From a virus: a stretch of DNA of 64,000 nt. Each line of letters starts with the position of its first letter. Within the stretch, counting starts at the first letter, position 1. The stretch spans positions 44,010 through 108,009 of IMG/VR virus record IMGVR_UViG_3300017938_000007. The stretch is one strand, 5' to 3'. A program made the translations under genes and the position numbers. Below the pieces are notes generated by a model. That model was not told the origin of the DNA, made no database searches, and was given only the letters and a program-made list of their open reading frames with translations. This document shows, in pieces, positions 923-63,395 of this stretch.

Positions 923-1345
923 GTGACCAGAGCCGAGCACATCGTAGACGCGTTGCTGGAAGACGACTCATTGGATTCGTTGGAAGGGGCCGAACCTTGG
1001 GATTATTCCCAAGTTTTCAAGCCCGGCAGCCCGCAGTATCAACGATACCAACTGCGTAACAACCCGCCCACGACCAAAGCGGAGGCTCACCGGTTGGGCG
1101 TTAACTGGTTTGTTCAGGGCGGGCGCAAATACGTGTTTCAACCGGCAGCGGAGGAGCCGCCCGGTTATCCCCGTAAATCACACACGCTGGCGACCAACCG
1201 GAATTTGCGCCGCCGGTCTTTTGGCGCGACCGATGTCTACAGCACGCGGGAACGTGACTGGCCCACGCCGAGCAGGCGTCTGTACTACAAGCACGCCGAC
1301 CGGGCGCTCAAACAGCGCGAGCAAAACATTGGAGGCGGCATTTAA
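923..1345 (+). CDS. Candidate packaged virion protein with capsid-targeting-like N-terminus
   Basis: A 140-residue basic protein starting at GTG. The start is chosen because TAATTA lies 4 nt upstream (913-918), the arrangement seen before many virion genes here. The N-terminus MTRAEHIVDALLED resembles the T4 internal-protein capsid-targeting peptide (MKTYQEFIAE), in which the prohead protease cuts after a hydrophobic-x-Glu triplet; LLE at residues 11-13 would be the site. The rest is rich in Arg, Tyr and Pro with no recognised domain. Packaging is inferred from the N-terminus only. Confidence 0.7.
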   Translation: MTRAEHIVDALLEDDSLDSLEGAEPWDYSQVFKPGSPQYQRYQLRNNPPTTKAEAHRLGVNWFVQGGRKYVFQPAAEEPPGYPRKSHTLATNRNLRRRSFGATDVYSTRERDWPTPSRRLYYKHADRALKQREQNIGGGI

Positions 1346-1376
1346 AAATGTTCCACGGGGAACAGTTCTACAAATC

Positions 1377-1598
1377 ATGGATTACCGGCTAACCAATCGT
1401 GAATTTTCCAGAGTGTGGCGGCGGAGCAAACGCTACTCGGATCACGAATTGAAATGGCTTTGCCGCCGTCGCGGGCTGGCCCTGCGCCGGGAGGGGAAGG
1501 ATTTGAAGGCGGTCGATCCGAAGACCAACAAAGTGGTGGTTCGTTTTGAACCAATTCCTGTGGCGATGCTCCCGGAACCGCCCCCCAAGCGCTATTAA
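1377..1598 (+). CDS. Small basic hypothetical protein (73 aa)
   Basis: Starts at the ATG at 1377, 31 nt after the preceding gene; a longer in-frame extension to 1110 only shadows that gene. The product is strongly basic, with clusters such as RVWRRSKR and RRRGLALRR, then a proline-rich tail ending PEPPPKRY. It could bind nucleic acid, but no known fold is recognisable. A short hairpin (1349-1364) sits just upstream. Confidence 0.6.
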   Translation: MDYRLTNREFSRVWRRSKRYSDHELKWLCRRRGLALRREGKDLKAVDPKTNKVVVRFEPIPVAMLPEPPPKRY

Positions 1599-1607
1599 AT
1601 TTTGCTA

Positions 1608-1633
1608 TTGACAAGTGGTGTTTTCGGTATACA
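1608..1633 (+). promoter_or_regulatory. Candidate sigma70-like promoter
   Basis: TTGACA at 1608-1613 is followed after 14 nt by TATACA (1628-1633), or after 16 nt by TACATT (1630-1635). The ATG of the ligase-like gene is only about 10 nt downstream, so the transcript would be nearly leaderless. The same TTGACA/TATACATT pairing recurs elsewhere in the window. Confidence 0.45.
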
Positions 1634-1643
1634 TTTTGGGTGT

Positions 1644-2225
1644 ATGCAGGAAAAGATTGTCATCGTTTCGGGCGTGGTGTTTCCTTTTCAGCCGGTGCGC
1701 CCCGCTACGGGCCGCACGCTGCGGGCTGTGCGTCTGATCGAGGACTTATACCAAGAAATCAGCAAACCGGGCTTGTGGTGCGCCCAGCCTCTGCTGGCCG
1801 GGGAACGGGCCTGTCTGGCGGTCGTCGACAAGAGGCTCTACGTTCAGGATGGCTTTGGCAAGTGGTACAAAAAGCCGCTCCAGCATACGCACGATTTTCT
1901 GAAATTGCCCAACCGGACGGTTTTTGACGGCGTGGTGTACGAAGAAGAATTTCACCCTTTTGACCTGTTGGCCCTTGACGGAAAATCTATGTTGTATCGG
2001 TCGGTGGACGAGCGGGAGGTCATGGCGTTCCAGATGGTCAGGTTCATCCAGCATCGCTGGATGTTCCCCAAACCGACCAGAGCGTGGCTGCTGCGCGGGG
2101 CCAGAAATCTCCCGATGTATGAAGGCATTGTTTTGAAAGACAACCGTTATCCGACGCATTATTATCCCATGGGCGGAACGCGGAAACGGACAACGCTGGC
2201 GTGGTTCACGCGGAAATGGTCTTGA
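1644..2225 (+). CDS. Degenerate ATP-dependent DNA/RNA ligase-like protein
   Basis: A 193-residue protein with the motif order of a nucleotidyltransferase ligase core. The motif III region is FDGVVYEEEFHPFDLLAL (94-111), motif IV is YEGIVLK (159-165), and a C-terminal W/K pair (187, 191) sits where motif V is expected. Motif I, normally KxDGxR with the adenylated lysine, reads LLAGER (50-55): the Lys is replaced by Leu50 and the Asp by Ala52. It lacks the OB domain of full ligases. It is therefore probably inactive as a ligase, or has another nucleotide- or end-binding role. Starting at 1644 places a good promoter just upstream. A strong terminator follows. Confidence 0.6.
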   Translation: MQEKIVIVSGVVFPFQPVRPATGRTLRAVRLIEDLYQEISKPGLWCAQPLLAGERACLAVVDKRLYVQDGFGKWYKKPLQHTHDFLKLPNRTVFDGVVYEEEFHPFDLLALDGKSMLYRSVDEREVMAFQMVRFIQHRWMFPKPTRAWLLRGARNLPMYEGIVLKDNRYPTHYYPMGGTRKRTTLAWFTRKWS

Positions 2226-2328: not shown

Positions 2329-2363
2329 CAATTTGCTCCTGCGAAAATACGTTCTTAAAAAGC

Positions 2364-4479: not shown

Positions 4480-4597
4480 TTTTGAGGAGGACGGTCTTCC
4501 GCTTTTTGGCTTTGGAGACCGCAAGGGGCTTCATGTGGATATGGTTCCACAGGTAGGACAACGGATAGCTTTTTTGCGGTATGCGTGACTCGACCAT
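4457..4597 (-). CDS. Small basic ORF coupled to the phosphatase gene (46 aa)
   Basis: The ATG at 4597 overlaps the TGA of the upstream phosphatase gene in a TGATG arrangement typical of translational coupling. The product is Lys-rich (KAKKRK near residue 33) and has no recognisable domain. It overlaps the end of the convergent gene by 23 nt. Support is only the coupling and open frame. Confidence 0.4.
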   Translation of the reverse strand: MVESRIPQKSYPLSYLWNHIHMKPLAVSKAKKRKTVLLKTNCADPG

Positions 4598-4950
4598 CAG
4601 TGTTTGAACGTTCCTTTGTTTTGCTCCACGCCCTTGGCCTTGTCGTCCCAGAATTCGTCGATGTCGGGCGTCTTTTCGTGGGTTATCTTCAGATCGGGAA
4701 GATCGTGCTCCTTCAGCCACGCCTTGATAGGACGAATGTTGATCGGCTCCGCTGCGCGAGCGGTAAAGATGATGACTTCGTGGCCGCTTTCCAATGCCCG
4801 CCGGATTTTCCGCACCATTTCTGGAACCGGTTTGCCGATCTTTTCCCGGTCAAACTTGCCGGGCAGGCGGCGGGCTAATGTGCCGTCCAGATCAACGGCG
4901 ATGACTTTTTTGTCCTCCAGCAGGATGTCTACGAGTTGTTTTGCGCGCAT
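4597..4950 (-). CDS. HAD-superfamily phosphatase with capsid-targeting-like N-terminus
   Basis: A 117-residue compact HAD phosphatase. Motif I is DLDGTL (catalytic Asp20 and Asp22), motif II is the Thr in IIFTAR, followed by a Lys in IKAWLK and an acidic motif IV (EFWDD). The small size without a large cap suggests a nucleotide- or polynucleotide-phosphatase-like substrate. The first 13 residues (MRAKQLVDILLED) match the packaged-protein leader seen elsewhere and precede the core. The ATG at 4950 is preferred over an upstream TTG at 4962; TAGTTA lies 15 nt upstream. If the leader is real, this enzyme may be carried in the virion. Confidence 0.75.
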   Translation of the reverse strand: MRAKQLVDILLEDKKVIAVDLDGTLARRLPGKFDREKIGKPVPEMVRKIRRALESGHEVIIFTARAAEPINIRPIKAWLKEHDLPDLKITHEKTPDIDEFWDDKAKGVEQNKGTFKH

Positions 4951-17897: not shown

Positions 17898-18461
17898 ATG
17901 AAAAATAATTGGATCGGCAAAGTGCTCGGCGAAGACGCTACGCCAGCGCCGCCCGCGCCGGTAAAACCAGCCCCCTCGATTTTGCAGCAGGTGCTCGGCG
18001 AAGAAGAAGAAGAGGAAAAAACTGAGCCGAAGGAAAAACCCAAAGCCGAGGAAGCACCCAAAGCCGCCGAGGCGGAACCTGCGCCCGAAACCGATGCAGA
18101 CACGGCTGCCGCCGTTGCCGAACCCGGTGAGCCAGATCACGTCAGCGATCCCGTCCAAGTCCTCGCTTCCCTGTGGTCAAGCGGCGGCAAAATGGACGTG
18201 GCCATCAAGCTTTTGACCGAACCGGTCAGGTACACCGACTTTATTGGCTTGGTGCAGGCCATTGGCCCTGAAAGCGCCTTGGAACTGGGCCAAATACTGG
18301 ACGATCTGGTCGAGGGACAGGGCGGCGACGGCGCGCCACCGGCGGACAACATCTTGTCCCGCGTGGATGGTTTCAAAAAACAGCGTATCGGAGCCGAAGA
18401 CGGCGAAGTTCCTCAGCGCTCAGCCGGGGACGATCTGGCGGCAGTTACCCAAAGAGAATGA
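17898..18461 (+). CDS. Acidic candidate packaged/head-core protein
   Basis: A 187-residue protein. The N-terminus MKNNWIGKVLGED and an internal ILQQVLGEEEEEE are two copies of a related hydrophobic-GE motif that may be protease-cleavable head-targeting segments. Residues 40-75 are a charged Glu/Pro/Ala linker and the C-terminal half is helical (MDVAIKLLTEPVRYTDFIG). TAGTTA sits 4 nt before the ATG. It is upstream of the capsid assembly genes, so a role as an internal or core protein (like T4 gp67/68) is plausible. Confidence 0.6.
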   Translation: MKNNWIGKVLGEDATPAPPAPVKPAPSILQQVLGEEEEEEKTEPKEKPKAEEAPKAAEAEPAPETDADTAAAVAEPGEPDHVSDPVQVLASLWSSGGKMDVAIKLLTEPVRYTDFIGLVQAIGPESALELGQILDDLVEGQGGDGAPPADNILSRVDGFKKQRIGAEDGEVPQRSAGDDLAAVTQRE

Positions 18462-19189
18462 ATCCGTTTTTAGCCAAAGTCACAGGCCGGATACAGGAAG
18501 ACGACGCAGTGCCGGTACCGGCGGGCGCAGTCACCCGGCGCACGTATCGTGACCGCATGATCCAGCAGCGGCAGGGACGGCGGGCCGAGGACGAAGATTC
18601 CACCGCGCTCAAGCGGGTCGTTGGTGAAGCAAAGGACACCAGCATCATCCCGGACAATGCCGAGGAGATCAACGACATGGGTCTCTCCGTGCTGCCCAAA
18701 ACGATGAAACCGATCAAGGACGTGGTTCAGGAACCCTCGCATCCCAGCGGCGACCGCGAAAAGCTGATGACGCCTTACGCTGCGCTGACGGCCCCGGATG
18801 CCACGCCGGGGGCCATGACTCCGCTCGATCCTTCCAAAGTGCCCGGCAGTACCACCCAGAGCTTCACGGCAGCCGAACTGGAAAAAGCCGAGCCTGAACA
18901 AGAGGTTGCCCCGGAAGAAATTGAAGGGCCGGGCGTCGACAAGGCCACGCGGGCGATGGATGTGATCTTGGGCCGCACACGGGCCGGAAAACCCGCTGCT
19001 GACCGCGCTGAGGCCCAAAGAGCAGGCGCTATTACGTCTGAGGCTGCTGCGTACGCTGCTTTAAAGGTTGATCCGCCGGGCATGGCTGAAACTGTCGGGG
19101 CGGCCATGGTACCGGGGACACCGATGCCGGAACCAACGCCGGGTGATGGCAAGAGGATTTGCGAAGCTTTCCGGCACTTTATGGGCTGA
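18458..19189 (+). CDS. Candidate packaged/head-core protein
   Basis: A 243-residue protein overlapping the previous stop (ATGA). The N-terminus MNPFLAKVTGRIQEDD resembles the leader of the preceding gene. The rest is largely disordered, rich in Ala, Pro, Glu and Thr, with several hydrophobic-x-Glu sites (RVVGEA, ELEKAEPEQE). No enzyme domain is seen. By position and composition it may be an internal head protein or a scaffold component degraded during maturation. Confidence 0.55.
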   Translation: MNPFLAKVTGRIQEDDAVPVPAGAVTRRTYRDRMIQQRQGRRAEDEDSTALKRVVGEAKDTSIIPDNAEEINDMGLSVLPKTMKPIKDVVQEPSHPSGDREKLMTPYAALTAPDATPGAMTPLDPSKVPGSTTQSFTAAELEKAEPEQEVAPEEIEGPGVDKATRAMDVILGRTRAGKPAADRAEAQRAGAITSEAAAYAALKVDPPGMAETVGAAMVPGTPMPEPTPGDGKRICEAFRHFMG

Positions 19190-19706: not shown

Positions 19707-21422
19707 ATGCGACAATATCTTGTTGAAGGCGCGACCGGTGCTGTTCCTTTTTTTGTAGACAGGACAAAACCGTTTGTATTTGAGACCCGCACGGACGGCG
19801 CGTCCACGTCAAGAATTCCCGGTCGTTTTTCCATTTGTGATTGCGTCAACGGCAACAATCGGCGCTATTCCAAGAAGGTCTGGGAAAAGAACCTTCAAAA
19901 CGGTTCGGTGCTCCGGGAGTCGATGAAGCGCAATGCGGCCTTTGGCCTTCTGGAGCATCCCAAAGACGGCATCGTCACCCTGCTTTCCCCCATTTCCCAC
20001 CACGTTACTGAAGCTGACCTCAAAGAAACCAAAGACATCACGGGTAAAACGATCTACGAAGTCCACGGCACCATCGAACTTCTTGAAACCCCCGAAGGCG
20101 GCAAGCTACGGGCTTTGATCGAGGGCGGCTACAACCCGATGGTTTCCAGCCGGGGTTATGGCTCGCTCGAAAAAGGGACGGACGGCGTGGATAACGTGTG
20201 TGAGGACTACATTTGCGAAGGATGGGACGTGGTGATCAAGCCTTCCTTCGAGACAGCGGAACTCACCCCGGTACGCGATCAGCCAGTAGTCGCTGCGGAA
20301 TCCAGAAACAGTCTCAAGGCGAGCGATCAAACCGTACTGGCTGAAGCCGCCACTAAAATGAATTTGAAGGAATCTCCTTCAACTGGTGCAGAAATCACCC
20401 CTGCCGCCAGCGCACAAACAAAAACAAAACCTATGGAAATCAACGAAGTAAGAAGCCGTGTATCGGCGTTGCGGACGGCTGTGGAATCGTGCCCGTCTGA
20501 CCCGAATCGCATCAATGCGCTGCGGGAGGACATCGACTCAATCGGTCGGGAAGTTTCCCAGTATCGTGCCGCTGATCCGGCCAAAAATGATTGGGATGCA
20601 CAAAAGCTGCATCGCGAACTCGACAGCCTGAGCAACAAGCTGGGCGAGACTGCATCGGCTCCGGCCAAGCAAGCCAAGAGGCTGTCGGAGAACAACACCA
20701 AGCTGATGAAGGTCATCAATGCCGTCGCCCAGACGGCGCTGACGTACAAGAAAAAGCTTGGAGAGGCCCTCAAAACCGTCACCAGCAACACCAAGATGAT
20801 CGAGGAGTTGACCCGGCGCGGTCAGGGCTGGCAATCACTTGCCGAAACCCGCAAGCAAAAGTACGCCACGCTGGAGGATGATTTCAATACTTCCTGCGAG
20901 GCCCTTGACCTGATGCGGGATCGCTACCACGAAGATGTCACCGAACTGGGTCGGCGCATCATCGTGCTCGAATTCAAGGAAAAGGCGCAGACTCCCGAAA
21001 TCCAGAAGTCGTTGAAGGAAGCCACGCGCCTGCGTCACATCGCGGCCATTCGCGAGACCTTGGAAGGCAAAAAGCCGGTCACCGAGGAAGGTGACAAGGG
21101 CAAACTGGCTGGCGCGGGCCAGCCCAAGGAAGGCGAGGAAGCCACCACGGTCAAGAAAGAGGGCCAAGGCAAGGGCACCGGCGAAAAGGGCGATCTGGTC
21201 GCCAAGGAACCCGGCAATGTGGCACACGAATCCAAGGGCGGCCAACCGGCGACAGCGTCGGTGGCGGAGTCCAAGGATGCTCCAAAGGATTCAGCAACCG
21301 CTGATAAAGCCCCGGCTACTACGTCCGTGGCTGAGGCGAAAATTCTGCTCAGAGAACGTGACCCTCGTGGGATCACGGAGTCGTATGAGATGGTCAGACG
21401 GCTGAGCACAACCGCCAAGTAA
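19707..21422 (+). CDS. Prohead protease fused to scaffold (gp21-gp22-like)
   Basis: A 571-residue protein. Residues 35-190 match the T4 gp21-type serine protease: ICDCVNGNNRRYS, catalytic His84 in GLLEHPKDG, and Ser147/148 in NPMVSSRGYGSL followed by DYICEGWDVV. From about 240 it becomes a long coiled coil (SRVSALRTAVESC ... LGEALKTVTSNTK) and then a Lys/Glu/Gly-rich tail, like gp22 scaffold. The N-terminal RQYLVEG and the tail contain hydrophobic-x-Glu self-cleavage sites. It lies directly before the capsid gene. In T4 the protease and scaffold are separate genes. Confidence 0.85.
   Translation: MRQYLVEGATGAVPFFVDRTKPFVFETRTDGASTSRIPGRFSICDCVNGNNRRYSKKVWEKNLQNGSVLRESMKRNAAFGLLEHPKDGIVTLLSPISHHVTEADLKETKDITGKTIYEVHGTIELLETPEGGKLRALIEGGYNPMVSSRGYGSLEKGTDGVDNVCEDYICEGWDVVIKPSFETAELTPVRDQPVVAAESRNSLKASDQTVLAEAATKMNLKESPSTGAEITPAASAQTKTKPMEINEVRSRVSALRTAVESCPSDPNRINALREDIDSIGREVSQYRAADPAKNDWDAQKLHRELDSLSNKLGETASAPAKQAKRLSENNTKLMKVINAVAQTALTYKKKLGEALKTVTSNTKMIEELTRRGQGWQSLAETRKQKYATLEDDFNTSCEALDLMRDRYHEDVTELGRRIIVLEFKEKAQTPEIQKSLKEATRLRHIAAIRETLEGKKPVTEEGDKGKLAGAGQPKEGEEATTVKKEGQGKGTGEKGDLVAKEPGNVAHESKGGQPATASVAESKDAPKDSATADKAPATTSVAEAKILLRERDPRGITESYEMVRRLSTTAK
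20433..21422 (+). CDS. Probable internal-start scaffold protein within the protease gene
   Basis: An in-frame ATG at 20433 (codon 243) is preceded by ACAAAACCT, nearly identical to the AAAAACCT before the capsid-gene ATG at 21462. It falls exactly where the protease domain ends and the coiled coil begins (MEINEVRSRVSALRT). Translation here would give a 329-residue free scaffold, as lambda Nu3 is made inside gene C. Based on start-context identity and domain boundary; not proven. Confidence 0.5.
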   Translation: MEINEVRSRVSALRTAVESCPSDPNRINALREDIDSIGREVSQYRAADPAKNDWDAQKLHRELDSLSNKLGETASAPAKQAKRLSENNTKLMKVINAVAQTALTYKKKLGEALKTVTSNTKMIEELTRRGQGWQSLAETRKQKYATLEDDFNTSCEALDLMRDRYHEDVTELGRRIIVLEFKEKAQTPEIQKSLKEATRLRHIAAIRETLEGKKPVTEEGDKGKLAGAGQPKEGEEATTVKKEGQGKGTGEKGDLVAKEPGNVAHESKGGQPATASVAESKDAPKDSATADKAPATTSVAEAKILLRERDPRGITESYEMVRRLSTTAK

Positions 21423-21461: not shown

Positions 21462-22925
21462 ATGGTTATTCTAAATGAATCGGGAAGACCGATGTTGGCG
21501 TCGGATGGCGGTCACATCAGCCGCTTTACCGACATTCTTGAGTGGGGCTATCGACTGGCCGAAACGCCGGTCGGCGTCCCCGAAAAAAGTCCTCGCGGCC
21601 TCTGGGAGGCTCGCGGCTGGAAAGAGTTTGTCGCCCACATGCCGGAATACAAACGGCCTCTGGCGGCGATCATGCTCGAAAACTGCCGCAGCCGCTTTGG
21701 CCGGTTGGACGAAGTGACGCGCACGACCTCTCTCGGCACTTTCGATAAATGGATTTTTCCAATTATCGCGAACATGTCCGAGAACGACGTGATCGATCAA
21801 CTGGTTGCGTTGCAACCGATGGCTGGCCCGGTCAGCCAGATCGTCTACATGGACATCGTGACTGGCCGTCGCAAAGGCCGCACTCCGGCAGGCGCTCCGA
21901 TGTGGCGTGCTCTGCAAGGCGCAACTGACCGCGACGATGACGGTGACGAAATCGTTCAGGACGAGACGGGAACCAGCAATGGTTCCGGCGTCATTGTCTT
22001 GGAGTGGACGCCGATCCGCCCCGGTACTCTTACCGGCAGCGTCAGCACGACAAACATTGCTGACGATGGCAACGGCAACATCATCAACACGTCGACCAAC
22101 GCGACAATCGGTACGGTGGTTTATCAGGGTACCGGCGCGGGCACGGTCACGGTTAGCACGCTGACCTCGGCGAGCTACGACATCAACTACGCGTTCAACT
22201 CTGAAGGCAACCTTGCCATTCAGGATTATGAGATGAAGCTGTCGTCCACGCCGGTCACGGCCAAGGTGATGAAGCTCAAGACTCTCTGGTCGGAAGAAGC
22301 CGATCAGAACTTGCAAGCAATGTATAATATCAAGGCGGAGAGCGTCCTGCTCAATGCTTTGACGAATGCGTTGCAGTACCAGAAACACCGTCAGGTTATC
22401 TTCGACCTGCGCGCCAAGGCTGACGCTGGCTTCGTTGTGTGGGATGCGATTCCCCCGACGAGCGTCAACTACCAGACGCACAAGTTCTCGATCATCGACG
22501 CGTTTGAAACCGCGAGTAACTTCATCTTCGGCGCTACGAACATGGTGGCCGGTAACTGGTTACTGTTGGGCCTTCAGGCCGCGACGGTCGTTGCCACGCT
22601 GCCGCAGTTCGTACCCAAGAACAACCGGACACAGATGCAGGGTATCACCTACATCGGCGACCTTGGGAACAAGAAGGTTTTTGCTGATCCTCACTATCCC
22701 AACAACGAGTTCCTCGTTGGGCACAAGGGGGATCAATTTTTGACAACCGGTTATGTGCTCGCCGAGTATCAAAAATTGTACACAACGCCCGACATCGTCC
22801 TGCCGGACTTCATCCACCAGCGCGGGTTTGCGACCAGCTTCGCCCGGAAGATGGTGAATTCAAAAATGTACTGCCGTGGCCTGATTCAGAACAGTCCTAC
22901 TGCGTTTGGTCAGACCATTGGATAA
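21462..22925 (+). CDS. Major capsid protein, gp23-like
   Basis: A 487-residue HK97-fold capsid protein of the T4 type. It has RPLAAIMLENCRSRFGRLDE near the N-terminus, then PIIANMSENDVIDQLVALQP and VSQIVYMDIVTGRR, a Gly/Thr-rich insertion (about 175-245), and a conserved C-terminal half (WDAIPPTSVNYQTHKF, ATLPQFVPKN). The N-terminal arm would be removed by the upstream protease, perhaps after a hydrophobic-x-Glu such as RLAE (about residue 33). It is followed by a strong terminator. A partial paralogue of residues about 325-425 is encoded at 53420. Confidence 0.88.
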   Translation: MVILNESGRPMLASDGGHISRFTDILEWGYRLAETPVGVPEKSPRGLWEARGWKEFVAHMPEYKRPLAAIMLENCRSRFGRLDEVTRTTSLGTFDKWIFPIIANMSENDVIDQLVALQPMAGPVSQIVYMDIVTGRRKGRTPAGAPMWRALQGATDRDDDGDEIVQDETGTSNGSGVIVLEWTPIRPGTLTGSVSTTNIADDGNGNIINTSTNATIGTVVYQGTGAGTVTVSTLTSASYDINYAFNSEGNLAIQDYEMKLSSTPVTAKVMKLKTLWSEEADQNLQAMYNIKAESVLLNALTNALQYQKHRQVIFDLRAKADAGFVVWDAIPPTSVNYQTHKFSIIDAFETASNFIFGATNMVAGNWLLLGLQAATVVATLPQFVPKNNRTQMQGITYIGDLGNKKVFADPHYPNNEFLVGHKGDQFLTTGYVLAEYQKLYTTPDIVLPDFIHQRGFATSFARKMVNSKMYCRGLIQNSPTAFGQTIG

Positions 22926-22987: not shown

Positions 22988-23002
22988 TGTTATCCTTTGT
23001 TT

Positions 23003-27797: not shown

Positions 27798-28025
27798 GTG
27801 AAGGCCAGACAGTTAATCGAAGGCAGAGGCAGGCTCAAGACCATCCAGTGTGCCGATGGCTGGATTTTTTACTGGCCTGCCGACGTTATGGGCGAGCAGT
27901 ATTTTGTCACGGGTACGAAGCAGGGACAAAAGCGCATTGCCTCGTCCGACCTGTCGTTGTATTTGATGGAATTAAAGCGGGTGTTGGGCGGTCAGGTACG
28001 CTCCCGGCGGCCTGCTGGTATTTAG
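27798..28025 (+). CDS. Small candidate packaged protein (75 aa)
   Basis: Starts at GTG. The leader MKARQLIEG matches the recurring hydrophobic-x-Glu head-targeting-like motif and would be cleaved after LIE. The remainder is a small basic beta-rich domain (IQCADGWIFYWPADVMGEQY). It heads a run of small genes with overlapping stops and starts. Confidence 0.55.
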   Translation: MKARQLIEGRGRLKTIQCADGWIFYWPADVMGEQYFVTGTKQGQKRIASSDLSLYLMELKRVLGGQVRSRRPAGI

Positions 28026-28571: not shown

Positions 28572-28880
28572 ATGAGTACTGCCAGAAGATTGATCGAACA
28601 AAAGCATCAGCCAAAGGATGATCCTGATGCTGTACGCGGCAAGGATTATCTGAAACAGATGCCCGATCCGAGAATCGTCAAAATGGAAGTCGTCTTCCGC
28701 TTTGGCGAACCGTTTGACGAAATGGGTATGCGCAATCTTATTGCGGATGTGTCAGAAGCTTTGTTGCAACATGCAAACAATGTCGGTTTTTCGCCGGAAG
28801 ACAACAGTGTAGCGGAGTGTACCGTAACTCCGATTCAACCGGCGCGGGGTACCCCGGCTGGTTGGGATTTGCTGGGCTGA
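28572..28880 (+). CDS. Candidate packaged protein (102 aa)
   Basis: Starts at ATG 28572, 1 nt after the previous stop. The leader MSTARRLIEQ fits the head-targeting-like family. The body has VVFRFGEPFDEMGMRNLIAD and a helix EALLQHANNVGFS, an alpha/beta domain I do not recognise. Confidence 0.6.
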   Translation: MSTARRLIEQKHQPKDDPDAVRGKDYLKQMPDPRIVKMEVVFRFGEPFDEMGMRNLIADVSEALLQHANNVGFSPEDNSVAECTVTPIQPARGTPAGWDLLG

Positions 28881-32911: not shown

Positions 32912-33496
32912 ATGCCAGCACTATCAAAATCACAGCAACAGGCGGCGGCCATTGCGTTGCACGCTCCAAAAAGTGAGCTTCGTGGAGCTTCAAAACAAAT
33001 GGCCACTTCGATGTCAAAAGGTGAATTGCGCAAATTCGCTAAAACTGAGCGAACAAGTCTGCCCAAGTACGTAAAAGACTCAGTCGAGCAAATCAAGGCA
33101 ATGATCAGCGAAGGTCGCCATAAGGTGGGTTGTACTTGCGGGTTTTGTAAGAACATGGGCAAAGGCTTTGGAAAGAAAAAAGAAGAAGTTGAGCCGGAGG
33201 AGCCGAAGGAATCGCCTATGAGCGAAGGGCAGGACGACATCGGCAAGCTCAACATGTCGCCGGAAGCAAAGCATTATGCCCGCCGGGGCGGTCTGGCCTC
33301 GATGAAACGCCAGCCCAAGGATTACGTCAACATGGTCGCGGCGGACACGAACCAAAAAGGCAAAAAGGCGGGCTTCAGGAATTTTGACGCCGCTGAAAAA
33401 CCAAGCGGGGGATCGATGGGAGCTTCACCGGGATTGACCAAAAAGAAAAACGAATCACTGGCGCAGGAAGTCGTCGACACAATGTTGAATGGCTGA
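32912..33496 (+). CDS. DUF3008-like protein with extended basic C-terminus
   Basis: A 194-residue protein. Residues 1-60 match DUF3008-type proteins (MPALSKSQQQAAAIAL ... LRGASKQMATSMS, then ELRKFAKTE and SLPKYV). A CTCGFC Cys cluster (about 74-79), an acidic stretch and a Lys/Gly-rich tail (YARRGGLASMKRQP) follow. TAGTTA sits 12 nt before the ATG. A small virion-associated or DNA-binding role is plausible by context only. Confidence 0.65.
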   Translation: MPALSKSQQQAAAIALHAPKSELRGASKQMATSMSKGELRKFAKTERTSLPKYVKDSVEQIKAMISEGRHKVGCTCGFCKNMGKGFGKKKEEVEPEEPKESPMSEGQDDIGKLNMSPEAKHYARRGGLASMKRQPKDYVNMVAADTNQKGKKAGFRNFDAAEKPSGGSMGASPGLTKKKNESLAQEVVDTMLNG

Positions 33497-33948
33497 TGAA
33501 CGCACGTCAAATAATTGCCAGTTTGCTGGATGAAGCCTTTGTACCGGATTATTCCGATCCAATGGGTCGTGATTATGCAGCCGAGCGTGGAGAAATAGCG
33601 CAGCAGTTGGCAATGCAGCACCAGAAACAACTACAAAGCCAAGAGCGTGAAGCTGGGCTGGAAACTGAACGTGAAATGGCCGAAGAGGAAAAACTTCGGC
33701 GTGAGCGTGAAGCTGCGGCTCGGAAAAAGGGTACCTTGCTCCACGGGACACGGTTAAAAGCACGGGATTACTTCCGCAGTCCTGAGCGCAAAACATGGCC
33801 GAAGATGCCGGAGATCGAAAGAACCGGCGAAGTACTTCCAACTGATTTCGGCACCAAAAAACAGGAACCAGAAATCCAGATAAAGGGTGCCCAAAAATAT
33901 CAACCGAAGCACTACATCATGCCCAAGCCATGGAAACACTGGCAGTAA
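33496..33948 (+). CDS. Candidate packaged protein with coiled coil
   Basis: A 150-residue protein coupled to the previous stop (TGATG). The leader MNARQIIASLLDEAF matches the head-targeting-like family. Residues 30-75 form a Glu/Gln/Arg-rich coiled coil (QLAMQHQKQLQSQEREAG), then a basic C-terminus rich in Lys/Pro. No enzymatic motif. Confidence 0.6.
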   Translation: MNARQIIASLLDEAFVPDYSDPMGRDYAAERGEIAQQLAMQHQKQLQSQEREAGLETEREMAEEEKLRREREAAARKKGTLLHGTRLKARDYFRSPERKTWPKMPEIERTGEVLPTDFGTKKQEPEIQIKGAQKYQPKHYIMPKPWKHWQ

Positions 33949-40192: not shown

Positions 40193-41023
40193 ATGCGCGC
40201 AGAAACACTGGTATCCCTCATGCTTGAGGCCACTCCCAACGGGGCGGTCTTGGCGTTTGGCTACGGTGCTCCGGCCACCGGTTTTTACGGGAACCGGCTG
40301 GATGACGTGGTGACCAACTTCAAACAGTTGAATCTGGTGAGCAAGGATGCTCCCACGCTGCAAGCCGTCAACGATTTGATCCAGCAGCAGAATGCGGCTT
40401 TCGTGATTCAAAAGAATCCCAACGACATTCATGTATACAGCCGCTCGACGCCTTTAGCGCTGGATCGGGAGGGCAAGGAGCGCATCCAGACCTTGTTCGG
40501 CGTGAACACTGACAGCAGTAGCGTGGCATGGTCGCGGGACTTCGGGACAACGGCCCAGCAGAAACCCGCCAACGAAGTTTTCGGCACGGTCAAGGAGCGC
40601 CAGCAGCGGGAACTGGACAAACAGCACCAGCTACAACGCGAGTTAGTGACTCGCGCCGCCGGGGCCGCGCCCCCCACCGGGGGAACTCAGCCCGCGCCCA
40701 ATCCGGGTGGAGGAGGCTATCAGCCACGGGTGAAACTGGGCTTCGATTACGACACGGGCAGCACGGACGGCATTCGGATCGTGAAAGTCACTCCCAACAG
40801 CCCGGCGTCGAGAGCCGGGTTGGTCGCGGGAGACGTGCTGTATACGGTCGGCCCTTATACGTCATCCCTGTCGCCGCAGGGACAGGCCAGCCATTACCGT
40901 CTCAAAACGGCGGACGATTTGAAACACGTGCTGGGCGAACTTGATCCTGACGTTCCCGTGCCGTTGGGCGTTCTTCGAGGGGATGGCAGTATGAAGCTGG
41001 CTATGGTGCCGGAAAAGCAATGA
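40193..41023 (+). CDS. PDZ-domain candidate packaged protein
   Basis: A 276-residue protein. The leader MRAETLVSLMLEATP fits the head-targeting family, with TAGTTA 5 nt before the ATG. The middle is helical then Gln/Pro/Gly-rich. The C-terminal 100 residues are a PDZ domain: GIRIVKVTPNSPASRAGLVA followed by GDVLYTVG, a second helix DDLKHVLGEL and a final strand VPLGVLRGD. PDZ domains bind C-termini of proteins, often proteases. Its presence in a putative virion protein suggests docking to a partner. Coupled to the SWIM gene by ATGA. Confidence 0.75.
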   Translation: MRAETLVSLMLEATPNGAVLAFGYGAPATGFYGNRLDDVVTNFKQLNLVSKDAPTLQAVNDLIQQQNAAFVIQKNPNDIHVYSRSTPLALDREGKERIQTLFGVNTDSSSVAWSRDFGTTAQQKPANEVFGTVKERQQRELDKQHQLQRELVTRAAGAAPPTGGTQPAPNPGGGGYQPRVKLGFDYDTGSTDGIRIVKVTPNSPASRAGLVAGDVLYTVGPYTSSLSPQGQASHYRLKTADDLKHVLGELDPDVPVPLGVLRGDGSMKLAMVPEKQ

Positions 41024-42303
41024 GACTTTTTATCGCAGAGCGGTTGAGCTACGACAAACTCTTCAGGATTTCCGATCCTAAACGAGTGACACGCTCCTTG
41101 ACGGTACGCGGGCCGCCGCTGGAGATCGACAGCTATCAGGACGCGGTTTATTACGCGTTCAACTTCAAGAGTCATCCCAGCACGACGGGACTGCGCTGGC
41201 GCGGCTACGTCAAGTTCATCAAACCGAAGACGGGCCGTGATACGCCGCTCCAGCACGTGGATTGCGTTGTCGATTGCAGTTGCCCGGATTATCGGTACCG
41301 CTGGGCGTGGGCGAACAAGCAGCGCGGTTCCAGCCAAGTCGGGCCGCAGTCGCTCAATCAGGCGTGGAACCGTGCGCCGCGTAAAACCAATCCCAAAGGC
41401 AAGCCCGGTTTGTGCAAACACATTCTGGCGGCGCGCCAGTACATTTACGGATTGCTGGCGGCCTTCCCCAGTGACAAACCGGACACGGCGGACAAGCTGA
41501 ACAAGCTGACCAAATTCGCACAGAAGCGCTGGACGGATTTTCCGGGTCAGATGCGGGCCGCCAAGGAACGCGACGCCGAAACTCGTCGACGGCAGGCCCT
41601 GCGCAACGTTGTCGGCCCGGTGTTGCCCATACAGGCGGTTCCGGCGGATCGGCCCACCAGTGTTGCCGGTCGAACTCAAGTGCCGGAACCGGAAAAATCC
41701 ACTGCTGCGTTTACAGCGCTTCAGCCGCCGCCGTTACCCAAACCGATTTCCGGCAAACCGGCTAAACCGGCGAAACCAACCGTGCCGCCAAAACCAGCGG
41801 CAAAAATAAAACCGGCACCGCGAACAAAACCGTGGCCGCACGGCGCGTACGCGTTGCCGGATGATGCCAATAATCAAGATTTTAAAAATTATCTGATGGA
41901 GTGTGTAGTTAATGCAAATGGCGATTCTATGAGCACTACGTTAAACGAAGCAATCAAACTGGTCGAAGAAATGGAAGCCGACGAGTTGACCGCCGCGCCA
42001 GCCGCAGCCGCGCTGGATGATCCGGTGGACAGCGCAATGGAACCCAGTGAACCGCCCGTCAGTGACTCCGCCGTCGGAGCCGACACGGAGGAAGACACCG
42101 CGCTGGGGTTGCTGCGCCAGATGCGTGATTTTCTCGCCCAACTGGCAACCGCTTTGGCCCCGGAAGAAACTCCCGAAGCTCCCGAAGGTGAAGAAGTCCC
42201 CGGTGGCGAAGGAGCCATGCCCCCCGAACCTCCTGCCGACGAAAAAGAGGAGGACGAGGACGAGGAAGAAGAGCTTCCCGACCGGCGGCCTGTTGAAAAG
42301 TAA
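41020..42303 (+). CDS. SWIM zinc-finger protein with FIAE leader, candidate packaged protein
   Basis: A 427-residue protein. It starts MRLFIAERLS; the FIAE is identical to the T4 capsid-targeting cleavage site. Residues 86-134 form a SWIM zinc finger, CSC ... CKH, preceded by a beta-rich N-terminal domain. From about 200 the protein is a Pro/Lys-rich linker, then an acidic tail with a run EKEEDEDEEEELPD. SWIM fingers bind DNA or protein. An internal TAGTTA (41906) before ATGs at 41912-41930 may be an internal start. Confidence 0.7.
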   Translation: MRLFIAERLSYDKLFRISDPKRVTRSLTVRGPPLEIDSYQDAVYYAFNFKSHPSTTGLRWRGYVKFIKPKTGRDTPLQHVDCVVDCSCPDYRYRWAWANKQRGSSQVGPQSLNQAWNRAPRKTNPKGKPGLCKHILAARQYIYGLLAAFPSDKPDTADKLNKLTKFAQKRWTDFPGQMRAAKERDAETRRRQALRNVVGPVLPIQAVPADRPTSVAGRTQVPEPEKSTAAFTALQPPPLPKPISGKPAKPAKPTVPPKPAAKIKPAPRTKPWPHGAYALPDDANNQDFKNYLMECVVNANGDSMSTTLNEAIKLVEEMEADELTAAPAAAALDDPVDSAMEPSEPPVSDSAVGADTEEDTALGLLRQMRDFLAQLATALAPEETPEAPEGEEVPGGEGAMPPEPPADEKEEDEDEEEELPDRRPVEK

Positions 42304-45382: not shown

Positions 45383-45744
45383 TTGACCTATTCAAGCCCA
45401 TCTCCGGGGCCATGGAGGAGATATTCGAGCAGGAGTTCGATGACCGCAAAAAACGCGATCAAATCGTCGAACGGCTGATGGTGTGGCTCACCGGAGAAGC
45501 CCGCAAAAAGGAAATCCCCGACCTTGACAAACGCATTGAGGATATGCGGAAGCGGACGAAGGACATGGTGGAGGACATGAAAGTCGTAATTGAGGACGGG
45601 AAGCTCGTAGTTAAGGTTGCCGGTTCAGCAGAGCAAACGTGGCGGCTGTACCGTTTGGGCAGTAGCTGGTTTGAGCCGGATAAATACGCGATTGAACGAA
45701 TACTCGCCGGTCTTTTAGACGAAGCCGGTAGTTATCACAAATGA
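45379..45744 (+). CDS. Hypothetical protein (121 aa)
   Basis: Coupled to the previous gene (ATGA). N-terminal charged helix (AMEEIFEQEFDDRKKRDQIV) and a C-terminal beta segment (VIEDGKLVVKVAGSAEQTWR, LGSSWFEPDKYAIE). A possible tail-completion component. Coupled by ATGA to the next gene as well. Confidence 0.6.
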   Translation: MIDLFKPISGAMEEIFEQEFDDRKKRDQIVERLMVWLTGEARKKEIPDLDKRIEDMRKRTKDMVEDMKVVIEDGKLVVKVAGSAEQTWRLYRLGSSWFEPDKYAIERILAGLLDEAGSYHK

Positions 45745-46007
45745 AAGACATCAAGCAAATCGTAGCCGAGTCCGTGGAAAACGGAAACAAGAACTACATC
45801 AGCGAAGCCGTAAACATGCTGCTTGGCGGCGACGTGAAAAGCGGTGACACCGTAGCCGTCGTCGATGATCCGATTTACGGTTATTCTGGCGCGAAGGGCA
45901 AAGTGAAGGGTGAGTCGCGGCAGGGCAGCGGCTTCGTCGACGTGGAGCTTGAAAACGGCACCACGATGCCCATGCAGACCAGCCTGCTTGTCAACGTACG
46001 CACTTAA
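45741..46007 (+). CDS. Small SH3-like candidate head-core protein
   Basis: An 88-residue protein with leader MKDIKQIVAESVENGN, matching the head-targeting cleavage pattern (IVAE followed by Ser), then MLLGGDVKSGDTVAVVDDPI and a compact beta domain (GKVKGESRQGSGFVDVELEN) that looks like an SH3-type barrel. Confidence 0.6.
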   Translation: MKDIKQIVAESVENGNKNYISEAVNMLLGGDVKSGDTVAVVDDPIYGYSGAKGKVKGESRQGSGFVDVELENGTTMPMQTSLLVNVRT

Positions 46008-51407: not shown

Positions 51408-51940
51408 GACCTGAAGGATTACTCACAATTTCAAAGATCACGTTGGCCGACGGCACGGAAATTCCAACGTGGAAGGCCATTGATTATGGCTGGATCGCCC
51501 GGCCTGAAGGCCATCAGCCCCGTGGGTGGGGCCTTGAGCGGCATGAGGTTCCTCTGGGCAAAAATCTCTTCGTGGATCAAGGACGCCAACTGGTGGCGTA
51601 CGCTTTTGGTTTTCGCAGTCCCATTCAGGATTACGTCTGCCAGAAATTTGGGGTTGGCACCGGCACCACGGCGGCTCAGGTTACAGACGTAGCGCTGGAA
51701 GCGCCCATCACCTTGAGCAACAGCCAGACGACCAAAGACGTGGACACCATTGATTTTCTCAGTCCCTTTGTCGTGCGGGTTGGTTTTACGCTGGGAGTCG
51801 ACGACGCCAACGGCTACATCATTTCGGAGCAAGGTCTGTTTTCGGGAAACAACGCGCTGATCGCCCGAAAAATCCGTTCGGTCAGCATCAATAAAACCTC
51901 TGATTTTGCGTCCACCATGACGTGGCGCTTGCGCTTCTAA
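51404..51940 (+). CDS. Probable virion structural protein (178 aa)
   Basis: A beta-rich protein (GKNLFVDQGRQLVAYAFGFR; FLSPFVVRVGFTLGVDDANG; ends TMTWRLRF) resembling small tail or baseplate accessory proteins of many phages. It is coupled on both sides (ATGA and TAATG). No catalytic motif. Confidence 0.6.
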   Translation: MRPEGLLTISKITLADGTEIPTWKAIDYGWIARPEGHQPRGWGLERHEVPLGKNLFVDQGRQLVAYAFGFRSPIQDYVCQKFGVGTGTTAAQVTDVALEAPITLSNSQTTKDVDTIDFLSPFVVRVGFTLGVDDANGYIISEQGLFSGNNALIARKIRSVSINKTSDFASTMTWRLRF

Positions 51941-52218
51941 TGAACTCAATCATCCAAAAAGTAGTGGGCGAGGCACAGGGTTACGCCGGTACCGTTGACT
52001 TTAAAACGCCTCCGCCAGCGCCCGCCGGGGCACCGAGTGCGGTTGAAAAAGTAACCGGCGCTACTCCAGCCCACGCGGCGGCTGAAAGCCGGGAAGTCGC
52101 TATCGGGCGGGAGATACTGGCGGCGCTCGGACAAATGCTGCCCATGGCCCGCCGCGACCGAATGGTGCAGCAGATCGAAAAGCTGGCCCAAGAGTTGGTT
52201 CAAATGCACCGAGCGTAG
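51940..52218 (+). CDS. Small candidate packaged protein (92 aa)
   Basis: Starts at ATG 51940, which overlaps the previous TAA. The leader MNSIIQKVVGEAQG is similar to those at 17898 and 18458 (hydrophobic-GE). A Pro/Ala-rich middle (FKTPPPAPAGAPSAVEKVTG) and a C-terminal amphipathic helix follow. Confidence 0.55.
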   Translation: MNSIIQKVVGEAQGYAGTVDFKTPPPAPAGAPSAVEKVTGATPAHAAAESREVAIGREILAALGQMLPMARRDRMVQQIEKLAQELVQMHRA

Positions 52219-60898: not shown

Positions 60899-60910
60899 AT
60901 CAACAAGAAC

Positions 60911-60942: not shown

Positions 60943-60962
60943 GGTGCTCACGGGAAAACGTT

Positions 60963-61457
60963 TTAGACGCCTTCCGCAGTGAAGTCGATGTTGCCCGAAC
61001 CGGCTTGGATGTTGCCAGAAGCCGTGGTGGCAGGCCCAGCGGGCGTGCCCCATTTCTTCTTGAGTTCGAGCTTGTTGAAGCCTTCGTCGTAGCCCCAGCC
61101 CCGACGACCAACCGCCACGATGTCGATCTGCGCGTTGCGCAGGTCGGCCTTGTTGCGAATGACAGCCGAGATGTTGACCGTGGTACTGCCAGAGCCGAAA
61201 AACGCCACCCGTTTGGAGAGCAGGACGTACGACTTGGTAATAACACCGCCGGGAACCACTGTAAAGGCCGAGCCGACCAAAGCGTAGCCGGAAGGGGAAG
61301 TCGAGCCATCGTACTGCATCAACTTGATATAAGCCTGATTAGGGCCTGTATTCTCGAAGACGAAGTCAATGTTCCCCAACTTGTCGTTCGCGGATTGCGC
61401 GTAACCAGCAAACACTTGTGCATCGGTGCCGAAGCCAATTGCAGATAGTTGGTTCAT
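60963..61457 (-). CDS. Decoration-like beta-sandwich protein 3
   Basis: A 164-residue protein. IDFVFENTGPNQAYIKLMQY ... GSAFTVVPGGVITKSYVLLS corresponds to the cores at 42331 and 52228. It has a longer C-terminal extension with WGYDEGFNKLELKKKWG and a Gly/Ser/Thr-rich end. It stands alone with a terminator, suggesting strong late expression, consistent with a capsid or tail decoration protein. Confidence 0.6.
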   Translation of the reverse strand: MNQLSAIGFGTDAQVFAGYAQSANDKLGNIDFVFENTGPNQAYIKLMQYDGSTSPSGYALVGSAFTVVPGGVITKSYVLLSKRVAFFGSGSTTVNISAVIRNKADLRNAQIDIVAVGRRGWGYDEGFNKLELKKKWGTPAGPATTASGNIQAGSGNIDFTAEGV

Positions 61458-61571
61458 AATGTTATCGTTGTTTGTTGCCGGTCACACGACCAGCGTTGTT
61501 CACGCATAACAACACACGTTTCACCAACAGTTTTTAACAGACTTGAAGATCAACTGTATTTGATGCAGTTT

Positions 61572-62609
61572 TCAAAATTTGCCGTTCGCGATGGACAAGC
61601 CGATTTCAAGCAGTTCCTGTTTTTCAAGCTCGATCCCGGATTTGTTGGGCGGCAGCGTCTCCATCCAGCGTTGGCAGACGCCTTCCAGTGACCAGTCTTT
61701 TTCCACGGTCGCTTCCGGGTTTTCCACTTCACTGTAGTTGTATACAGCAGGATGACGGCTGAAAAGCGGATGGTGATAATACTCCTCGGCTTCCTCGTGT
61801 GAGGCCAGCACCACCTTATAGCGGTGTTCTTCGTCAGCTTTGGCCATCTTTTTGAACTGTTCGAGGCTGACCTGCCGGTATTCCGGGTAGCCCGGCAGCG
61901 CGACCCACGTGATTTGTATGGGGTCGCTGGTGTCCAACACGGCGACGCGCTTTTGCTGGGCAGATTCGCCCCAGTTTTGCTGGAAAGGTGAGCCAATGTA
62001 GTGGATGTGATTACCGATGGTTTGGGGAAGATGTACGTGGCCCAACAGGCAAAGTTCAAAAGGTTTCAAAATGTCCGCTGGAATGCCCTGCAAGGCAATG
62101 CCGGTGGCCAGTGCGCATCCAGCCACCTGAAAGTGGCCAAAGAGGATTTTGCCGTCGTTGCGATACTGGTAGGCATACTTGGCTATCCAGCGCGCCAAAA
62201 CGTCGTGGCTGGCCGGGTACGAGCAAAAGAAAGCCCTCCAACCGTCGAAGTCGAAAATTTTGTTTTCGCTGATCACCGTGAATTTGTGGTCGAACAGCCG
62301 CCGAACGTTGACGGAAGCATTACGAAGATATTGCTCGTGATTCCCGATCAATTTAATGTTCCACGTGGAATCCGGTATAAGATCAAGGCCATTGCCCAGC
62401 ACTTCGATGGTGGGTACCGGAATCGAGGAGCGGTCACCGGTCATGTCGCCGAGGTCAATGACACCGTTGCACTCGTATTTGTCATAAATGGCCCGTAAAT
62501 CGCGAAAGAATTTTTCGACGCGATAGTGCTGGAGCGTGGTGGTCGGATGGGTAAAACTCAGTTCATCGCCATCGGTGGCGTGCAAATCCGCGTAGCAAAG
62601 CAACTTCAT
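61572..62609 (-). CDS. 47: SbcD/Mre11 family nuclease, gp47-like
   Basis: A 345-residue metallophosphoesterase. Metal-binding motifs: YADLHATDGDE (D and H), GVIDLGDMTGD, KLIGNHEQ, ILFGHFQVAG and LCLLGHVHLPQ. A cap domain follows. It would pair with the gp46-like ATPase at 38210 to process DNA ends. In T4 the two genes are adjacent; here they are about 21 kb apart. Confidence 0.9.
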   Translation of the reverse strand: MKLLCYADLHATDGDELSFTHPTTTLQHYRVEKFFRDLRAIYDKYECNGVIDLGDMTGDRSSIPVPTIEVLGNGLDLIPDSTWNIKLIGNHEQYLRNASVNVRRLFDHKFTVISENKIFDFDGWRAFFCSYPASHDVLARWIAKYAYQYRNDGKILFGHFQVAGCALATGIALQGIPADILKPFELCLLGHVHLPQTIGNHIHYIGSPFQQNWGESAQQKRVAVLDTSDPIQITWVALPGYPEYRQVSLEQFKKMAKADEEHRYKVVLASHEEAEEYYHHPLFSRHPAVYNYSEVENPEATVEKDWSLEGVCQRWMETLPPNKSGIELEKQELLEIGLSIANGKF

Positions 62610-62716
62610 GCTTTTAAGAACCCAAAGTTTTCACCAATTCAGTTATTTTCCAACTGTCTTGGCTGCAATTTGACGGAAAACGCAGTTTGGTTCTACAAGG
62701 TGTGCAACTTACACTG

Positions 62717-62905
62717 ATGACACGAATATACACGTTGGCGGTCAACGGCCAGACGCTTTTGGAAGTGGATGTGGACGCTCCCAGATGGCTGCCGATTGCG
62801 CCACAGGTGAATCATCGCTGGCTTCGGTCGTTCGTTGCCGTGACCCTTAAAAACTACTTCAGTCCGCGTACCAGCGCAGCGGTAGACCGCGTTTGTCTGA
62901 ATTGA
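62717..62905 (+). CDS. Small hypothetical protein (62 aa)
   Basis: ATG 62717. A small beta/alpha protein (MTRIYTLAVNGQTLLEVDVD) with basic C-terminus. It lies in the divergent region opposite the gp47-like gene; the 107-nt gap upstream is AT-rich but no promoter is obvious. Family unknown. Confidence 0.5.
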   Translation: MTRIYTLAVNGQTLLEVDVDAPRWLPIAPQVNHRWLRSFVAVTLKNYFSPRTSAAVDRVCLN

Positions 62906-62921
62906 CGCCGTAGTTAAGGTT

Positions 62922-63395
62922 GTGACAGAAGCACGAGCAGCACGATTTTTAATTGAAGACCTGCCTTCGGCGCTGGGCATTAGTGGACAACCATCAACCA
63001 GCGGCTCACCGGCGGGTAGTCGTATGCCTGCGGATGCGTCCATGGGGGGTCGTATGTCTGCGCGTAAATCATCCGGCGATCATCTGGATAAAAAGGTGAT
63101 GGTTTTGGCGACGCGCATGATGCTTCAGATTTTTTCAGTGCCTTCCTTGATGGCGTATCTCGCCGACGCGGCGGTTATACCCACCGGCAGACCGGACAAC
63201 AGCATCAAAATTCAACTGGATTTTATCAAGCTGCCCAAGGAAATTTTGCCTGAATTGGAGAAGCTTTTGTCTACGGATTACTTCAAGGATCACAATCTGT
63301 TGAAATACATCAAGAATGGACAGGCTCGCACCGGGCTGGAAATCGAAGTAACTCCCAAAGACCTGCCCGGCACCGCTTACGACTACGCTTACTGA
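62922..63395 (+). CDS. Candidate packaged protein (157 aa)
   Basis: GTG start with TAGTTA 5 nt upstream (62911-62916). The leader MTEARAARFLIEDLPSALG fits the head-targeting family (LIE). A disordered Ser/Gly/Met stretch (20-50) is followed by a helical domain (DKKVMVLATRMMLQIFSVPS; LPELEKLLSTDYFKDHNLLK). Coupled to the next gene by TGATG. Confidence 0.65.
   Translation: MTEARAARFLIEDLPSALGISGQPSTSGSPAGSRMPADASMGGRMSARKSSGDHLDKKVMVLATRMMLQIFSVPSLMAYLADAAVIPTGRPDNSIKIQLDFIKLPKEILPELEKLLSTDYFKDHNLLKYIKNGQARTGLEIEVTPKDLPGTAYDYAY

Follow-up and report, generated by a model that had tools for sequence, protein, structure and literature searches.

The window and the virus

The stretch of DNA described here, which we call the window, is 64,000 nucleotides long and spans bases 44,010–108,009 of the 108-kb IMG/VR record IMGVR_UViG_3300017938_000007 (G000). 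Our subject is a short N-terminal leader, typically ending in hydrophobic-x-Glu, that is carried by otherwise unrelated proteins of this virus, and its relationship to a prohead protease of the T4 gp21 family encoded in the same window. The 199-kb record G001 derives from the same virus, with capsid protein, protease and SWIM-like protein 100% identical to those of the window, and the virus is a large (~200 kb) uncultured T4-type phage. The genomes compared are G001 and 12 relatives from IMG/VR, with six cultured phages as controls; genes were called with a home-made caller that sets some starts wrongly (those at 33496, 40193 and 62922 were missed or shortened), and G002 coordinates given here are contig coordinates minus 22.

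A megablast search with 24 kb of the window returned no match among phages, and tblastn with the major capsid protein matched 144 cultured phage records, the best-ranked being 30% identical over 85% of the protein. Flavobacteriales were considered as hosts and not adopted, as the three genome-collection matches, the best of them 80% identical in a Flavobacteriales-binned contig, are too weak to name a host. When three of the putative cargo proteins were searched against a viral collection, the virus itself made up one of one, one of two and one of three loci found, and cargo looks variable.

Leader-bearing and candidate leader genes in the window

The first-pass annotation listed twelve N-termini as sharing a T4 capsid-targeting-like start, and all twelve are present at the coordinates given below, three of them (923, 27798 and 62922) with GTG start codons. 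We scored them with a position weight matrix (PWM) built from 15 G001 leaders, none of them from the window. Three score highly: 923 (22.0), the minus-strand gene starting at 4950 (22.4) and 40193 (14.5); by comparison, the highest score among 53 other called genes is 1.5, and 3 of 1,710 internal windows reach 9 or more. The other nine score low (33496, 6.7; 45741, 4.9; 41020, 1.0; 62922, −1.3; the rest −7.9 or below). Of the proposed dozen, three are strong on sequence alone and others lean on conservation, 27798 and 33496 being plausible only and 41020 doubtful. Leaders are quoted below up to the predicted cut, and a slash marks the cut where a following residue is shown.

The first of the strong members (923..1345, plus strand) is a protein of 140 amino acids with the leader MTRAEHIVDALLE (bases 923–961); its body has no Pfam match, and among the relatives compared the leader was found only in this virus. 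The second (4597..4950, minus strand) is a HAD-family phosphatase with the leader MRAKQLVDILLE (bases 4915–4950). Its HAD label, proposed earlier, agrees with matches to phrog_1238 (2.3e-17; named phosphoheptose isomerase) and to two polynucleotide kinase families, and with PF25109 at 3e-4, below that family's cut-off. The relative in G006 has the leader, as probably does that in G010, and those in G004, G012 and G013 are without it; because orthologues occur both with and without the leader, it behaves as an add-on. A structure model from five sequences has a mean predicted local distance difference test score (pLDDT) of 72.8, with residues 1–10 below 50 and the first strand at residues 16–20. 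The third (40193..41023, plus strand) carries the leader MRAETLVSLMLE (bases 40193–40228), which is kept in all four relatives found (G002, G003, G004 and G012) in alignments that are 24–28% identical; its designation as a PDZ protein is marginal, at 26.9 bits against a cut-off of 27 for PF13180 and 6e-6 for PDZ_2.

The remaining members, all on the plus strand, differ in how well they are conserved. The protein at 28572..28880 begins MSTARRLIE and continues with a second conserved element, DDPDAVRGKDYLKQMP, described below; its G001 copy scores 11.4 bits with the G001 profile of that element. At 62922..63395, a 157-residue protein beginning MTEARAARFLIE has an N-terminus that is conserved in relatives: the ending is LIE, LVE or IIE in six of six (G006, G008, G009, G010, G012 and G013, the starts in G010 and G013 being taken from gene calls), and the residues that follow diverge. 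The 88-residue protein at 45741..46007 begins MKDIKQIVAE/S, and [IV]xE[SAT]V is conserved in 9 of 10 sequences including G001, with a Lys in G013. The 92-residue protein at 51940..52218 (MNSIIQKVVGE) resembles GE-type N-termini in G002, G012 and G004, and gave no BLAST match under the settings used, its own G001 copy included. The short protein at 27798..28025, with the candidate leader MKARQLIE, has a body with weak relatives in G006, G008 and G012 (E 1e-4 to 7e-4), and the leader is absent in G008 and G012; for the 150-residue protein at 33496..33948, with the candidate leader MNARQIIASLLDE, no relative was found outside G001. The most doubtful is 41020..42303 (MRLFIAE/R; phrog_18980, unknown function), a SWIM-like CxC...CxH protein for which the earlier label of a SWIM finger finds no Pfam match at E 0.05. 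[IL]xE precedes a conserved body in 9 of the 10 relatives whose N-termini align, G015 being the exception, and there is no leader helix. One further gene, at 44108 on the minus strand, looks similar and was rejected as a leader protein, the Glu being absent from several relatives.

A leader shared across the genome and its relatives

In G001 the leader commonly reads M-x(n)-A-x-x-[LIVM]-V-x-x-L-L-E. Scanning G001 with a matrix, without regard to called starts, gave 32 rows scoring at least 9, and 27 were accepted as leaders (18 of these had trained the matrix), five (7121, 16817, 21368, 76438 and 94550) being left out as noise. The accepted leaders include 21 that fit A-x-x-[LIVM]-V-x-x-L-L-E exactly, and 26 end in hydrophobic-x-Glu, the exception being LLD at 151084. 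Only one of 20 leader proteins scanned has a Pfam match above cut-off. The codons of the leader Val vary (GTA 11, GTT 5, GTG 3 and GTC 3; n = 22), and this variation suggests that selection acts on the peptide.

A loose motif, [LIVFM]xE starting at residues 4–14, is found in 82 of 279 G001 proteins (0.29) and in 0.187 of internal windows, and across genomes and patterns its enrichment ranges from none to about threefold, too weak to be used alone. Because hydrophobic-x-Glu near an N-terminus is not rare, we used a test that assumes no motif, counting pairs of proteins with similar residues 2–15 among those without BLAST homology (E<0.01); BLAST was the sole filter for homology, so the counts may still include remote homologues. 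In G001, 130 of 34,443 pairs are similar, versus 16, 12 and 10 in three internal windows. There is an excess in G006 (63 versus 10, 11 and 10), G012 (41 versus 7, 8 and 14) and G013 (45 versus 9, 11 and 7), and counts are smaller in G002 (12 versus 2, 3 and 2), G004 (10 versus 3, 1 and 4), G008 (5 versus 1, 2 and 1) and G000 itself (5 versus 0, 2 and 1); G003, G007, G009, G014 and G015 have 0–2 pairs each. Little or no excess is seen in the control phages LIS04 (11 versus 7, 11 and 12), SP-15 (18 versus 11, 5 and 17), SPO1 (5 versus 4, 5 and 3) and phiLo (5 versus 3, 3 and 7). The T4 count is 19 versus 10, 11 and 9; in T4, the genes with one partner include two that start MKTYQEFIAE, which we take to be ipII and ipIII.

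A matrix from 18 G001 leaders, applied to relatives at a score of 12, matches 11 of 263 proteins in G012 (0.25 expected from internal positions), 11 of 149 in G004 (0.17) and 5 of 128 in G002 (0.07), although some of these matches may be orthologues of the seed proteins, such as the PDZ protein. The sharing of the leader is far beyond chance, and from the sequences it seems that a single genome can have it on as many as thirty or so unrelated proteins. Searches by tblastn with single leader stretches against phage records gave 3 and 2 records at E 7–9, none significant.

One control stands out in the pair test. The cultured Achromobacter phage Motura has 62 pairs versus 9, 12 and 12 internally, and MxIQAxxRLxA begins 13 of its 318 called proteins, versus 0–1 in each other genome tested. 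The genes with this N-terminus (L194–L204) lie at about 112–145 kb, with one at 177 kb, and Motura has no match to phrog_207, the head maturation protease family considered below; this suggests that the principle of tagged cargo may reach beyond the gp21 family. One of these Motura proteins continues with LYHGTT and looks, by eye, like an ADP-ribosyltransferase.

A second element and its recurrence in long chains

In many leader proteins the Glu is followed by a second element, whose form is [DG]PD[EV]xxPKxYLxxL in G001, [AG]E[ST]PRxxxKxL in G006 and DDFDxKDL in G010. Further copies of this element are found within long proteins, where they separate unrelated segments and often come after hydrophobic-x-Glu. 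A G001 profile made from N-terminal copies only finds seven internal copies in three proteins at 6 bits or more, with 0, 1, 0, 1 and 0 in shuffled sequences, none in five of the six control phages and one in phiLo. The corresponding G006 profile finds four internal matches, one of which (130741) may be a miscalled start, with none in shuffles or controls at 6 bits and one match at 8 bits in a separate shuffle set. The G001 segments match each other only in their first 24 residues, over 12–22 amino acids, in all 11 rows (in the chain at 151084 the VVE site is at 368, and the last cut was set ten residues further on, at 378), and it is therefore the element that recurs and not a domain. A G012 chain of 1,367 residues has, by eye, about eight such junctions.

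Some segments of chains correspond to free proteins in other viruses. For example, the free leader protein G001 106966–107451 is matched (36% over 140 amino acids, 5e-24) by the second segment of G006 149306–150061, which follows VVE/AETPREFLKKHAP; a homologue in another virus (L216) has no leader by eye. Similarly, a G002 segment following PGE/EFDARDYIL matches the free leader protein G006 175001–175795 (36%, 6e-28), the match beginning 57 residues into the G002 segment. G001, G006, G010 and G012 each have a single NUDIX match, which lies in a chain, at residues 21–125 of 370 in G001, 186–295 of 713 in G006, 1000–1120 of 1,509 in G010 and 21–119 of 433 in G012; T4 and SP-15 each have one NUDIX above cut-off, and NUDIX itself is thus not special to these viruses. 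In G001 137741–138853 the NUDIX domain is joined to a thymidylate kinase (residues 167–360), with KIAE/S at 151 between them. The other chains scanned contain one NUDIX, one DUF6166, or nothing above cut-off. In two G010 chains (112251–115823 and 87573–91010) we note by eye a stretch like an ADP-ribosyltransferase (FYHGTSAQLVPKILSEGL) together with a zincin-like HExxH; the motifs seen, HELVHH and HELTHK, have no Pfam match there.

The prohead protease, core-like neighbours and capsid protein

The statement that the window encodes a T4-type prohead protease is supported. The gene at 19707..21422 (plus strand) matches phrog_207 (head maturation protease) at 5.2e-30, a family that also matches T4 gene 21 at 2.8e-79 and proteins of the Listeria LIS04, Bacillus SP-15, Pectobacterium CBB and Thermus phiLo phages; its profile finds nothing in Motura, SPO1 or N4. 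The product is a protease fused to a scaffold, 571 amino acids long, beginning MRQYLVE/G and with the site ITE/S at the scaffold C-terminus. The N-terminal hydrophobic-x-E is present in all 14 aligned rows (13 of them distinct; the called start lies further upstream in G003, G007, G008, G013 and G014), as is [ILV]xE[SA] near the scaffold C-terminus.

Before the protease lie two plus-strand genes that the first-pass annotation had counted as GE variants and whose products look more like prohead core proteins than like delivered enzymes; T4 has the gene order 67, 68, 21, and the window has 17898, 18458 and then the protease. The first (17898..18461; N-terminus MKNNWIGKVLGE) is acidic and core-like by position and composition, with an LGE N-terminus in six of eight relatives, MGQ in G002 and no alignment there in G012. 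The second (18458..19189; MNPFLAKVTGRIQE) is less well conserved: among nine relatives LGE is found only in G003 and G012, in G002, G006, G009 and G010 the Glu lies a few residues later, and the others are unclear or not aligned there. That annotation also understated the extent of the system; it did not remark on the approximately 27 leaders of G001, the second element, the long chains or the protease's own N-terminus.

Downstream of the protease is a gp23-type major capsid protein (21462..22925, plus strand; phrog_138, major head protein, 4.7e-26). Its LDE or MDE ahead of [VS]TRT is conserved, though the whole protein is too. A small minus-strand open reading frame (ORF) at 53420–53884 resembles the middle piece of the capsid protein (38% over 90 residues, E 5e-11) with no PHROG match, and by its sequence is taken to be a partial capsid paralogue in the tail region. 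Several genes among the structural genes look by eye like homing endonucleases of HNH or GIY-YIG type (27231–27794, 32436–32900, 37722–38219 on the minus strand and 50494–51072), and 22997–23941 is also endonuclease-like (phrog_20046, 2.3e-37; homing endonuclease phrog_314, 3e-5). The minus-strand ORFs 60416–61309 and 60963–61457 overlap in two frames and appear, by eye, to be an endonuclease-like gene against or within a structural gene.

A probable capsid targeting and cleavage system, and its alternatives

We think that these observations probably reflect a capsid targeting and cleavage system like that of T4, greatly enlarged and perhaps with polyprotein cargo. By analogy with T4, the leader would form a helix, attach to the prohead core and bring its protein into the prohead, where the gp21-family protease would cut after the Glu and the leader would be lost; the mature protein, often still with the second element, would stay with the DNA and enter the next host. 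Internal copies of the element may also be cut, although we are less sure of this step, so that several proteins would arise from each chain. The second element could be a tag that stays on the protein or could belong to the recognition region, and in chains without a leader might itself direct targeting; the predicted scaffold sites are without it, which counts against its being needed for cutting in general. More tentatively, and at slightly less than even chances, the head-maturation protease may double as a polyprotein protease: modular chains of up to about nine units would enter the prohead, cutting at the lineage-specific tags would set free numerous early-infection proteins that each keep the tag, and units would move between free and chained states as viruses diverge. 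Cleavage-like sites do recur between non-homologous segments in G001, and the statistics are weaker elsewhere.

A number of results weigh against this reading. The exact leader is not transferable: at a score of 12 the G001 matrix finds nothing in G003, G006, G007, G008, G009, G013, G014 and G015 and only 2 of 253 proteins in G010, and the pair test in G010 gives a slight excess (15 versus 8, 7 and 12). Lineage-specific versions were read off by eye in several of these relatives: MSRARAILE in G006, MxARxxID(E) in G013 and MKATLAILKHLLE in G010. A G010 profile from N-terminal copies of the second element finds no internal copies, perhaps because the element is strongly acidic there; a regular expression, which was written after the copies had been seen, gives 19 matches, a number of them N-terminal, where shuffles give 0.05. 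Three chains of 1,145, 1,190 and 1,509 residues account for 14 of the 19, including one that is N-terminal; outside G010 the expression matches three times in one G008 protein, once in T4 and not in other genomes. Ten chains, picked for bearing the element or shared domains, contain 56 [LIVMF]xE[SA] sites, and an acidic stretch comes next in 20 of the 56 as compared to 30 of 798 elsewhere in those genomes; in four of the ten chains, sites outnumber those in shuffles at p≤0.05. One G001 junction (RNE/A) has no hydrophobic residue. Six of the ten chains have a leader-like start, three of these with Asp for Glu (LLD, ILD and IID), and Asp at the position of the cut-site Glu in T4 is described as blocking processing and not targeting (PMC9026906). 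The other four (G010 72236, G012 24625, G001 140537 and G006 121121) have no leader at their start, nor any by eye in the in-frame upstream residues; they would have to enter by another route, for which the second element is a candidate, or else do not belong to the head cargo. The NUDIX–kinase structure model is unusable (pLDDT 36). Finally, GLWE/A was rejected as a universal cut site of the major capsid protein, as G013 has GLWK.

The alternative that survives best concerns the chains, which might be uncut multidomain polyvalent proteins, with the repeated element serving for spacing or docking and not as a cut site. Polyvalent phage proteins of 2 to 15 domains are described, some of them carried uncut (PMC5512222), and some junctions here are without a hydrophobic P3 residue; that four of the ten chains have no leader speaks for this possibility and against the polyprotein reading. 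Nevertheless, the same element follows the predicted leader cut site in short proteins, many junctions are hydrophobic-x-Glu, and the segment at one junction exists in another virus as a free leader protein, so that we regard uncut chains as a substantial possibility, at roughly one chance in three. It is also conceivable, but unlikely, that the leader, though a genuine helix for sorting or docking, remains uncut and directs proteins to a membrane, a replication compartment or some other assembly, and is not a capsid signal removed by the protease. Cleavage is predicted from sequence, and the second conserved element lies after the Glu, as this explanation would allow; but the protease and the adjoining core-like protein share the same type of N-terminus, and the terminal Glu of 26 of the 27 G001 leaders fits the gp21 rule L/I-X-E (PMC9026906).

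That ordinary N-terminal helices and chance account for the pattern, hydrophobic-x-Glu having been picked out among many genes, is very improbable. The loose motif does turn up at about 29% of G001 N-termini, with internal windows at 19%, 44108 looks similar with the Glu absent from several relatives, and nine of the twelve N-termini first proposed score low, but the pair test, the held-out matrix and the control phages refute it for the leader as a whole, and it is possible for single members such as 41020 and 27798. Least probable of all is a repeat at the DNA or RNA level, a promoter or translation signal whose own translation is incidental, which would suit the position of the element at gene starts but is disfavoured by the wide variation of synonymous codons at conserved residues and by the recurrence of the second element inside genes.

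Comparison with known systems

The closest precedent for the leader is provided by the internal proteins (IPs) of T4. As in IPI, IPII and IPIII, a short leader with a hydrophobic-x-Glu end is carried by unrelated proteins, and there is a gp21-family protease with a similar N-terminal site. The three T4 proteins are described as sharing only the leader and as each blocking a different GmrSD restriction enzyme, with at least 10 IP types in T4-related phages (PMC12373910). The differences are that the leader sequence is not that of T4, that about 27 proteins in one contig carry it as opposed to the three IPs and Alt, that a second element follows the cut and has internal copies in long chains, and that the protease is fused to a scaffold. 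The T4 sequence MKTYQEFIAE itself is absent from the leaders, which makes membership of the T4 leader family less probable without touching the proposal that the two work alike.

As in the system proposed here, a gp21-like protease in phiKZ, 201phi2-1 and SPN3US cuts numerous head proteins after x-x-Glu, with 19 processed in 201phi2-1 (PMC9026906) and 14 sites in nine substrates in SPN3US (PMC10052503); processing of many head proteins is reported for phiKZ-type phages generally (PMC5694885, PMC10052503). The N-terminal propeptides of SPN3US are, however, mostly 111–254 residues long (two are 20 and 24) and are not one short leader common to unrelated proteins (PMC10052503). The word polyprotein does not appear in the available text of that article, nor, by a term search, in that of a jumbo-phage overview (PMC7824862). 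For the long chains the closest idea is that of the polyvalent proteins (Iyer et al. 2017), which are multidomain, combine unrelated activities and are thought to be delivered with the DNA, as may be the case for the chains here; their processing was proposed to involve zincin-like metallopeptidases (PMC5512222), whereas the predicted sites here fit the head protease and come with a lineage-specific element. In phage P1, the N-terminal 30 residues of DarB send the protein into the head, but the Dar N-termini have no consensus by the authors' BLAST (PMC9024508), unlike the shared leader here. A 2026 review covers co-injected inner-body proteins and virion RNA polymerase (PMC13282480), and no description of a system such as this one was found among the titles and abstract openings listed in searches of open-licence literature.

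If this interpretation is correct, the leader would be an address, readable from sequence, that lists much of the head contents of an uncultured virus, some thirty proteins in one phage, and the handful of internal proteins known from T4 would be extended to large and variable arsenals. It would further suggest that phages make polyproteins for packaging. The system also bears on a question raised for T4, in which gp21 cuts after L/I-X-E and the protease itself has a like site, LIE-9, whose use is described as open: whether the N-terminal site of the protease is a targeting leader (PMC9026906). It does so because here the protease, a core-like protein and the cargo share the same type of N-terminus.

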